The notes beneath the pieces were generated by a model. That model was given only the letters and a program-made list of their open reading frames with translations, was not told the DNA's origin and did not search any database. From assembly GCF_900078195.1 (NCBI RefSeq), contig NZ_FJVE01000007.1, positions 806,001 through 870,000 of the forward strand: a DNA stretch of 64,000 nucleotides, given 5' to 3'. This document shows positions 46,276 to 48,335 of the stretch, one piece after another; position 1 is the first letter of the stretch, and the number at the start of each line of letters is the position of its first letter. The stretch is from Clostridium sp. Marseille-P299. Lineage in GTDB: Bacteria > Bacillota > Clostridia > Lachnospirales > Lachnospiraceae. The position numbers and the translations under genes were made by a program.

Positions 46276-46503
46276 ATGTCTGAAGAAAATCAAGATATTA
46301 TAGATAAATACACAAAAATTTGTATATGTAAATCCATTAGTAAAAGTACGATGAAAAAGATTATTAGAGAAGGTGCGGATACCTTAGAAAAGGTTCAGAA
46401 GGCAACTTCAGCAGGAAGTGGAAGTTGTGGAGGAAGACGATGCACACCTAGAATATTGCAATTGTTAGAGGAATATAAACAAGAGCAAGAAAATAATATG
46501 TAA
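46276..46503 (+). CDS. BFD-like [2Fe-2S]-binding protein
   Basis: A 75-residue protein consisting of one bacterioferritin-associated-ferredoxin-like (BFD) domain. The cluster ligands are C16-x-C18 and C51-x4-C56 (CICKSIS and SCGGRRC), with the usual helical LEKVQKATSAGSGSCGGRRCTPR. Such domains donate electrons or serve as Fe-S modules of larger oxidoreductases and NADH-linked enzymes. Here it stands alone, so its partner is unknown; iron release from ferritin is one possibility. AAGGAG at 46258-46263 supports the start. A very long hairpin follows within 7 bp of the stop. Confidence 0.85.
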   Translation: MSEENQDIIDKYTKICICKSISKSTMKKIIREGADTLEKVQKATSAGSGSCGGRRCTPRILQLLEEYKQEQENNM

Positions 46504-46509
46504 ATTTTA

Positions 46510-46630
46510 AAGACCCGGTATATTGAAGTACATTTGTAACTGATTTCCCATTATGATTAAGCATTTATAACAGTTTTTTGGGAAGCCAGTCAAGAGCAGA
46601 TGTATTGAGATATATCGGGTCTTTTTTATT
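46510..46630 (+). ncRNA. ~114-nt near-continuous hairpin ending in a T-run; terminator or novel structured RNA
   Basis: AAGACCCGGTATAT (46510-46523) pairs over 14 bp with ATATATCGGGTCTT (46610-46623). TACAT/ATGTA continues the stem, then ACTGATTTCCCA (46539-46550) pairs with TGGGAAGCCAGT (46579-46590). A ~28-nt loop closes the structure and TTTTTT follows. It is far larger than a normal terminator. It could be a terminator, a processed small RNA from the 3' end of the BFD transcript, or a MITE-like relic. No known RNA family recognised. Confidence 0.55.
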
Positions 46631-46780: not shown

Positions 46781-46808
46781 TTGACAAAACAAGCCTTTAT
46801 AATATAAA
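46781..46808 (+). promoter_or_regulatory. Promoter of the Cys leader ORF/cystine symporter transcript
   Basis: -35 TTGACA (46781-46786), 16-bp spacer, -10 TATAAA (46803-46808). Transcription would begin near 46815, leaving about 48 nt before the leader ORF. That is too little for an S-box or T-box. Confidence 0.65.
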
Positions 46809-46862
46809 ATAAGTCTAATTCATACTAAACCAATATGAATACAATATAAAAGGGGGATCCAT

Positions 46863-46940
46863 ATGAAAACTTTGACAGAAATTACGAAAAAAATCTTAAG
46901 AGAGGCTAGTACAAATTGTTGCTCCTGTTGTAGATTCTAA
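46863..46940 (+). CDS. 25-residue Cys-rich leader peptide upstream of the cystine symporter
   Basis: A tiny ORF with a strong site AAGGGGG (46850-46856) six bases before its ATG. It starts MKTLTEITKKILREAS and ends TNCCSCCRF, with four cysteines in five codons (TGT TGC TCC TGT TGT) just before the stop. The cystine-type symporter gene starts 99 bp downstream on the same strand, with a promoter upstream of both. Cys codons clustered at the end of a leader ORF suggest ribosome stalling when charged tRNA-Cys is scarce. GATTC at 46933-46937 (overlapping the stop) and at 46963-46967 can each pair with GAATC at 46981-46985, a possible switch. Regulation is inferred; the ORF and its site are seen. 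Confidence 0.7.
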   Translation: MKTLTEITKKILREASTNCCSCCRF

Positions 46941-47039
46941 TTTTAACAAAAAAGATAATTAAGATTCTTTGTAATGGATGGAATCAGACTATTTTAATAA
47001 TTTATATGTTAAAAGCAACAGAATTTAAGGAGGATAAAT

Positions 47040-48335
47040 ATGAGCACCGATTTTATAGCAATAGGAGCATTAGCAGCAGCACTTCTGTTAATCGGCATTT
47101 TAGTTTTTTTAAGTAAAAGAAAGGTGGATTTCGGTCTAAGAACGATTATAGCTCTTGTATTCGGATTGGTATTAGGAATCATCTTTGAAGGTCACACAAA
47201 TTTTATTAAACCAATTGGTACAGTGTATGCAAATCTAATTTCGGCTTTTGTAGTGCCACTTTTATTATTTAGTGTTATTTCTAGTGTAACAAATTTAGAG
47301 AATATAAATAAATTGAAAACCATAGGTCTAAAAAGCGCAGGCTTATTAGTCTTTACAACATTTATTGCATCAACAATTACGATAGTAATATCATTGCTAT
47401 TAAAAGTTGGTAAAGGTACTAGTATTACTCTACCAAGCGATTATGTAGCGAAGGAAGTTCCTGAAATTTCACAGGTAGTTATTGATTTATTTCCAAAAAA
47501 CTTTTTTAGTCAGGCTTCTTCGAATGCAATTGTACCAGTTATTATATTTTCACTATTTATTGGTATTGCGGTAGTATCTCTTTCTACGAAAGATCCGCAA
47601 GGTGTTAAACCTTTTAAAGATTTTATAGATTCGGCTTCGAAAATAATTAACACAGTTATTTCCTATATTATAGAATTTACACCATACGCGGTATTAGCTT
47701 TGGTTGCAAATGCGGTATCTAATAATGGCCCAGATAAACTAGTACCACTTTTATTTGTATTGATTGTAGCTTATTTATTGTGCTTCATTCAAACTTTTGG
47801 TGTAAATAGTATATTAATAGGTGCACTGGCTAAATTAAATCCGATAAAGTTTTTTAAACATATTTGGCCAGCACAGGTAATTGCTTTTACGACTCAAAGT
47901 AGTATTGGTACGATTCCAGCAACTGATAAGTGCTTGAGAAAAGCAGGGGTATCGGAAAGTATTTCTTCCTTTGTTGTACCTTTGGGAGCGAATGTTGGTA
48001 TGCCTGGTTGTGCAGGTATCTGGCCTACATTATTAGCAGTTTTTGCAATTAACGGATTAAACATTGAATATTCCATTGGGCAGTATTTCTTTTTAATATT
48101 AATTACTACATTAGTTAGTATTGGAACGGTTGGAGTTCCAGGAACATCTACGATTACTGCAACTGCAGTATTTGCTGCAGCAGGATTACCAATTGAGATT
48201 ATAGTAATACTAGCACCAATTAGTTCAATTGTAGATATGGCACGTACTGCAACGAATGTAAGTGCAGCAGCGGCAAGTGCATTAATTATTGCGAAGAATG
48301 AAAATGAGTTAGATATTGAAAAATATAACGCTTAG
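47040..48335 (+). CDS. tcyP: Dicarboxylate/amino acid:cation symporter, L-cystine (TcyP-like)
   Basis: A 431-residue DAACS-family secondary transporter (GltPh fold, eight helices and two re-entrant hairpins). Features: an N-terminal hydrophobic helix and FGLRTIIALVFGLVLGIIFEG, FVVPLLLFSVISSVTN, the serine-rich hairpin FTTQSSIGTIPATDKCL, PLGANVGMPGCAGIWPTLLAVFAI, and PGTSTITATAVFAAAGLPIE. The last two features and the N-terminus place it nearest TcyP/YdjN cystine carriers rather than glutamate carriers; the substrate remains an inference. AAGGAGG precedes the start. The Cys leader ORF upstream fits uptake of a cysteine source. Confidence 0.85.
   Translation: MSTDFIAIGALAAALLLIGILVFLSKRKVDFGLRTIIALVFGLVLGIIFEGHTNFIKPIGTVYANLISAFVVPLLLFSVISSVTNLENINKLKTIGLKSAGLLVFTTFIASTITIVISLLLKVGKGTSITLPSDYVAKEVPEISQVVIDLFPKNFFSQASSNAIVPVIIFSLFIGIAVVSLSTKDPQGVKPFKDFIDSASKIINTVISYIIEFTPYAVLALVANAVSNNGPDKLVPLLFVLIVAYLLCFIQTFGVNSILIGALAKLNPIKFFKHIWPAQVIAFTTQSSIGTIPATDKCLRKAGVSESISSFVVPLGANVGMPGCAGIWPTLLAVFAINGLNIEYSIGQYFFLILITTLVSIGTVGVPGTSTITATAVFAAAGLPIEIIVILAPISSIVDMARTATNVSAAAASALIIAKNENELDIEKYNA

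Follow-up and report, generated by a model that had tools for sequence, protein, structure and literature searches.

The question raised by this locus is whether a short cysteine-rich open reading frame (ORF) in front of a transporter gene acts as a cysteine-sensing leader peptide. The ORF lies on the + strand at 46863–46940 of a 64,000-nucleotide stretch of DNA, the window, from Clostridium sp. Marseille-P299. It is composed of 25 codons encoding MKTLTEITKKILREASTNCCSCCRF, follows the ribosome binding site (RBS) AAGGGGG (46850–46856, + strand) and carries four Cys among its final seven residues. The codons of Cys19, Cys20, Ser21, Cys22, and Cys23, TGT TGC TCC TGT TGT (46917–46931, + strand), constitute the proposed stall site. 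The stop codon TAA occupies 46938–46940, and 99 nt separate its end from the ATG of a symporter gene at 47040. The codon number, RBS, Cys content, and spacing given in the earlier note are all confirmed in the sequence.

The symporter gene (47040–48335, + strand) encodes a protein of 431 residues that belongs to the SDF family (PF00375, E 1.3e-107) and reaches no cut-off among the NCBIfam models. Sequence comparison finds transporters of aspartate/glutamate and of neutral amino acids as its solved relatives. Homologues P0003–P0012 stand at roughly 90% identity. The nearest proteins among plasmid records are general dicarboxylate/amino acid symporters at 35% or less, and annotated L-cystine transporters are at ~31%. 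At the position of the GltPh NMDGT motif, the window protein reads MPGCAGIWP and two compared annotated L-cystine transporters read QNGCAG[VI]YP. The symporter (GCAGIWP) thereby has the motif GCAG[IV][WY]P in common with the annotated L-cystine transporters, as it has SDF family membership in common with the TcyP/YdjN L-cystine symporters. The name "TcyP-like" given to it before holds for this motif, but the ~31% identity to annotated L-cystine transporters makes the relationship a distant one. The protein is probably a cystine/cysteine importer, a substrate that we infer from the sequence.

The leader and the symporter probably form their own transcription unit, as suggested by the flanking features. 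Upstream of the leader are a gene for a BFD-like [2Fe-2S] protein (46276–46503) and a repeat with a T run; downstream of the symporter, the next large ORF is on the opposite strand. The upstream repeat, located after the BFD-like gene at 46509–46624, is a large inverted repeat with 28-nt arms that are 79% complementary and 60 nt apart; it encloses a second hairpin and ends in a T run. A consensus scan places a promoter at 46781–46810 on the + strand with 11 of 12 matches, composed of TTGACA (46781–46786), an 18-nt spacer, and TAAAAT (46805–46810). Shuffled sequence is no poorer in promoter-like sites as a class (10 found, 11.8 expected), and the match by itself is no evidence of function.

Among 80 short ORFs with a Shine–Dalgarno (SD) sequence on the two strands of the window, this leader is the only one with at least three Cys in the last ten residues. 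In a Markov simulation of 40 one-strand windows, 7 of 2848 ORFs had at least three Cys in the last ten residues and one had at least four. That the leader is real beyond chance is decided by the relatives. A genome scan with the symporter yielded 107 relatives, and the analysis continued with the best 80 as loci; two (L021 and L039) had too little upstream sequence and were excluded from the leader count. A leader was scored when an SD-led ORF of 8–50 codons ended 5–260 nt before the symporter and contained at least three Cys in its last 16 residues, or a CC with at least three Cys. Such a Cys-run ORF precedes the symporter in 31 of the 78 loci, compared with 0–3.5% of mononucleotide shuffles per locus. 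This recurrence, together with the frequency of Cys ORFs in the window, rules out a chance ORF.

The leader is concentrated in one branch of the symporter tree, which contains 77 rows (L021, L039, L040, and L068 are not included). The window's clade comprises 41 rows with a support of 100/100, and 28 of them have a leader. The sister clade, which is the rest of the tree, has a leader in 3 of 36 rows (L042, L050, and L061; Fisher p 4e-8), and those of L050 and L061 are possibly chance matches. The Cys C terminus and its place before the transporter, whose absence from relatives was named beforehand as speaking against a regulatory leader, are thus both conserved. The N-termini of the leaders vary between lineages and the Cys codons stay, in runs such as CCSCCCCC, CCCCR, CCCCFF, and CCHNRC. 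The Cys count itself varies; in the most reduced versions, what is left is RCC, RCW, or one Cys followed by YYYF. In the Sedimentibacter and Butyrivibrio groups, residues beyond the Cys run are also conserved. The arrangement expected of an attenuator, a conserved translatable leader ORF with a run of Cys codons before a regulated gene, is therefore found here.

Some relatives lack the leader. Two clade members scored as leaderless, L037 and L043 (Bifidobacteriaceae), have Cys-rich ORFs just past the 260-nt limit. Leaderless close relatives are L007, L009, and L134 and, among the Butyrivibrio-type loci, L193, L194, and L195. Further searches for relatives mostly recovered loci already known. 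The automatic procedure found a leader in 4 of 24 loci in one search (without it were L134 (77%), L136–L138 (51–53%), and 16 others) and in 7 of 33 in another. In a third, three of seven loci had a leader; those without were L193, L194, L195, and the partial L197, the first three despite 93–96% identity to L026, a Butyrivibrio locus. The leaderless relatives in these searches indicate that the leader is often lost. The attenuator is apparently common but often lost within one symporter clade, and its output apparently differs between lineages.

The pattern TGTTGCTCCTGTTGY occurs at 20 places in 18 of 200 genomes of the family, with three matches in a backward control. Leaders in front of the symporter account for four of these places, in G001, G002, and G003; the other 16 are not followed by it, so this spelling of the peptide marks no regulon.

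Rfam gives no family match in the window, and in 40 of the 80 loci the interval from leader to symporter is free of Rfam matches as well; a Cys T-box, an S-box (SAM) riboswitch, or another Rfam element is rejected on these grounds, in agreement with the earlier exclusion of S-box and T-box. An attenuator with an intrinsic terminator is likewise rejected for the window, where the best hairpin between leader and symporter has −1.7 kcal/mol and the + strand scan finds no terminator.

The situation is different in several relatives. Of 30 leader loci examined, 12 have an intrinsic terminator that follows the leader and precedes the symporter. In five Butyrivibrio-type loci, the terminator has −19.1 to −22.4 kcal/mol, and its 5′ arm is predicted to pair with a segment of the leader at −24.7 to −28.2 kcal/mol (shuffle p 0.005–0.035). 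This antiterminator segment begins 17–19 nt past the first Cys codon, approximately at the edge of a ribosome stalled there, so a stall should favor antitermination. As modeled, these loci would be textbook attenuation. The same terminator/antiterminator layout is present in L027 and L038 (p 0.04 and 0.03), and seven terminator loci in all are predicted to form ribosome-position-dependent alternative structures at p ≤ 0.04. Antiterminator pairing is weaker in L033, L028, L029, and L031 (p 0.08–0.114) and was not found in L024 (p 0.9). Covariation among the five Butyrivibrio-type leaders amounts to one two-sided change, which was equaled in 105 of 500 shuffles.

The loci that lack a terminator are predicted to differ in how the leader acts on the SD of the symporter. 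L050 and L061 were left out of the structure predictions. The leaders of L162, L163, and L164, which did not reach the automatic threshold, were selected by eye ahead of folding, a choice that favors the sequestration reading. Among 21 no-terminator loci, nine show a predicted drop of at least 4 kcal/mol in the cost of opening the SD at one stall position, and 12, including the window, show no large predicted switch. The switch is significant against shuffles (p < 0.05) in L005 and L162 of the nine, and in L018 for a stall at the last Cys; the prediction for L005 varies with where the fold begins. In L015 and L018, the SD opens at 1.2 kcal/mol with a ribosome at the first Cys codon and at 7.3 kcal/mol without one. 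For L015, the value of 1.2 kcal/mol applies to the first two Cys codons and rises to ~7 once the ribosome is at the stop. The terminator scan also flagged a hairpin in L015/L018, which is read as an antisequestor. In L163 and L164, the stop regions TAAACTGTC and TTAACTGTC pair with the ribosome binding sites GGACAGTTTA and GGACAGTTAA at −13.4 and −13.7 kcal/mol, and one base pair is changed on both sides between the two loci, as seen by eye. L015/L018 and L162–L164 are thus also predicted to form ribosome-position-dependent structures.

The window and eight relatives constitute a group in which the Cys run carries an anti-SD element. The Ser codon within the run is TCC in nine of nine first positions, creating a UCCU; in the 24 long ORFs of the window, TCC accounts for 11.8% of 949 Ser codons. 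Pairing between Cys run and SD exceeds that of synonymously recoded runs at p < 0.05 in four of the nine loci, and the window has p 0.055. In L001, L006, and L003, the last from Lachnoclostridium phytofermentans, the SD cost is predicted to fall from 6.2–7.0 to 0.1–0.4 kcal/mol with a ribosome at the last Cys codon, and is still 4.8–9.0 kcal/mol with a ribosome at the first. No SD switch is predicted in L011, L013, L014, and L040; in these loci, recoded runs pair at least as well as the native Cys runs with AACAAC-like segments upstream of the SD. Across 18 loci, the leader end prefers its own RBS (permutation p 0.005, or 0.014 with a longer RBS segment; L014, L018, and L040 were omitted as near copies). 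Inside the nine TCC loci this preference is not significant (p 0.26).

In the window itself, the predicted partner of the leader end and the Cys codons is AGAATTTAAGGAGG (47020–47033, + strand), which is composed of the symporter SD AAGGAGG (47027–47033) and the segment preceding it. Folds and duplex predictions identify the leader end TAGATTCT (46931–46938, + strand) as complementary to AGAATTTA (47020–47027). The UCCU in the Cys-Ser-Cys codons (46923–46926, + strand), complementary to the SD, pairs with AGGA at 47028–47031; UAGAUUCU (46931–46938) pairs with AGAAUUUA (47020–47027), and UUUUAACA (46941–46948) with UGUUAAAA (47007–47014). Among its own and 17 other RBSs tested, the leader end pairs best with its own. 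Opening the SD is predicted to cost 1.8–3.3 kcal/mol in the free RNA and 0.6–1.6 kcal/mol with a stalled ribosome, a change that shuffled segments frequently exceed (p 0.885). The 5′ region as a whole has no folding advantage over shuffles (z −0.28), and the region from the Cys codons onward has some (z −1.75).

These folds also bear on a competition proposed earlier, in which two GATTC segments, at 46933–46937 (abutting the stop TAA) and 46963–46967, would compete for GAATC at 46981–46985. The segments are present, but the first GATTC is predicted to pair with AGAATTTA next to the SD and not with GAATC. The competition is therefore rejected as the main switch; the better-supported one, without a terminator, is between the Cys-codon/stop region and the SD region.

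The best explanation for the locus, and one we regard as likely, is a leader peptide that gauges charged tRNA-Cys and whose Cys-codon/stop region, once freed, controls the SD of the symporter. With ample Cys-tRNA, a ribosome would pass the Cys codons, terminate, and depart, and the freed region would fold onto the SD region and keep translation low. With scarce Cys-tRNA, the ribosome would stall on the Cys codons and mask this region, the SD would be left open, and the importer would be made. The basis in sequence is the ORF, the conservation of a Cys run at this position, the clade-wide association with the symporter, and alternative structures predicted in relatives, in which the Cys codons are positioned so that a stall would activate expression. 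From these we infer stalling itself, the direction of the response, the cystine/cysteine substrate, and an action in the window on translation and not on transcription. The Cys attenuator reading of the earlier note is accordingly supported as the best one by the conserved Cys run and its place before the symporter. Support for the sensor is good; for the window, the output is a best guess and probably translational. Translational attenuators of the erm type also use a ribosome stalled on a leader to free a sequestered SD. They differ in that the cause of the stall here would be amino-acid shortage, and in that the stall codons of the TCC group themselves carry the anti-SD.

An unlikely alternative is that a Cys-codon attenuator acts in the window by a route other than SD sequestration, through Rho-dependent termination, mRNA decay, or coupled translation of leader and symporter. 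The window has no terminator and a weak SD switch, and L011, L013, L014, and L040 are likewise without an SD switch. Terminator-less Cys leaders are also described in Actinobacteria, where Rho was proposed (PMC1262725). The SD is nevertheless suggested as the target by the UCCU and by the leader end, which is complementary to its own RBS, and SD sequestration is clear in the predictions for sister species.

Very improbable is the alternative raised in the earlier note, a small metal- or thiol-binding peptide made with the importer. The CC and CCSCC motifs could bind metal, and the residues conserved outside the Cys run in the Sedimentibacter and Butyrivibrio groups would suit such a function, but the Butyrivibrio-type residues overlap the antiterminator strand. 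Divergent N-termini and a Cys count that can shrink to a single residue fit it poorly, as do the preservation of TCC at the codon level and the RNA complementarities at the leader end.

The predicted transcript start coincides with an inverted repeat, ATTCATA-N9-TATGAAT, with perfect 7-bp arms (46818–46840, + strand). It could be an operator or a 5′ hairpin and hence a possible second layer of control. A motif derived from it matches 13 of 197 loci, several being copies of one locus; L001, L006, L009, L011, L012, L068, and L134 are among those matched, and L009 and L134 are leaderless. L007 has a near match by eye. L007, L009, and L134 keep a promoter and repeat like those of the window, yet their symporter begins at once. 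The repeat is probably an operator for a cysteine regulator, conserved even where there is no leader. Control by a transcription factor at this repeat only, with the leader an accessory or relic, would explain the leaderless matches; it is highly unlikely in view of the retention of the leader in most of the clade and of its combination with a terminator and antiterminator in some groups, and the two layers can coexist.

Several known systems resemble the locus in part. Cys-run leaders are described in mycobacteria, Propionibacterium acnes, and Bifidobacterium longum (PMC1262725), and polycysteine short ORFs in mycobacteria (Canestrari et al. 2020, as cited in PMC9094748), where PMC1262725 had already predicted them. 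The mycobacterial ORFs share with the window a short ORF with a Cys run near its stop, located before sulfur genes, for which cysteine-responsive attenuation is proposed (PMC9094748, PMC1262725). They are leaderless, whereas the window leader is clostridial, SD-led, and placed before an SDF symporter, and many of its relatives carry intrinsic terminators with antiterminators. The uORFC-8-2 motif before cysS in Rhodobacterales also has tandem Cys codons and, with a terminator, is proposed to act by ribosome-mediated attenuation (PMC8632094); it belongs to another phylum and another target gene, and the window has no terminator. A functional parallel is provided by cysP1 and cysP2 of Clostridium perfringens, SDF-type symporters with limited similarity to TcyP whose cysteine response is attributed to a Cys T-box (PMC2940859). 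A T-box binds tRNA directly, and the window has no T-box match. Clostridial cysteine control is described in the same paper through T-boxes and S-boxes, and a 2005 survey reports no aminoacyl-tRNA synthetase gene of Firmicutes under classical attenuation (PMC1262725). Our literature search, in which coverage of subscription journals was thin, recognized no report of a Cys-codon leader in clostridia. If true, the leader would be a further cysteine sensor for clostridia and would suggest what a still unnamed branch of the SDF symporters does.

Cys leaders also occur before genes other than the symporter. A family model for cysKM identified 25 loci (14 above the cut-off), none with a Cys leader. 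In L045, L047, and L052 (upstream of 1085, 471, and 1031, respectively), two tandem Cys-rich leaders precede a gene for a WCHN-containing protein, followed by the symporter; the WCHN-containing protein had no Pfam match in two of three tested. A terminator follows the first leader in these loci, and antiterminator pairing reaches significance in L052 (p 0.025) but not in L045 (p 0.209) or L047 (p 0.244). In L016, a Cys-rich leader, a terminator, and an antiterminator are found upstream of 4890, before a gene for an ABC solute-binding protein (PF00497), with antiterminator pairing that begins 20 nt past the first Cys codon (p 0.02).

A wider reading, which we offer tentatively and rate as somewhat short of even, is compatible with these observations, although the leaderless L193, L194, and L195 lower its probability. 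The Cys leader would be ancestral to one clade of clostridial symporters, with the sensor kept and the output swapped: loci of the Butyrivibrio type and others would use a terminator and antiterminator, and the window's lineage and Coprobacillaceae would use SD sequestration. In the window's lineage, the Cys-Ser-Cys codons would be both stall site and anti-SD, so that one 15-nt segment would serve as sensor and repressor. The tandem leaders and L016 would be hints of a broader cysteine attenuation regulon in clostridia, next to the T-boxes. If true, the symporters would form a natural series, with the same sensing codons leading to termination in some species and to translation in others, making the evolution of attenuators directly testable.

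Three further variants were observed in individual loci. In L017 and L161, the leader just before the symporter ends in RCYYYF, the RCCCCFF run of the sister leaders being now mostly Tyr; the function may have been lost, or a different amino acid may be sensed. L068 contains, by eye at 2618–2960, an ORF with Cys (TCARYVCK), a hairpin with a T run, a second Cys ORF, and the symporter, possibly a tandem version of the leader. In L010, about 60 nt before the symporter start, a hairpin-like GTATTGA...TCAATAC stands between an SD-like AAGGA and the ATG, an arrangement that is possibly a bridged ribosome binding site.
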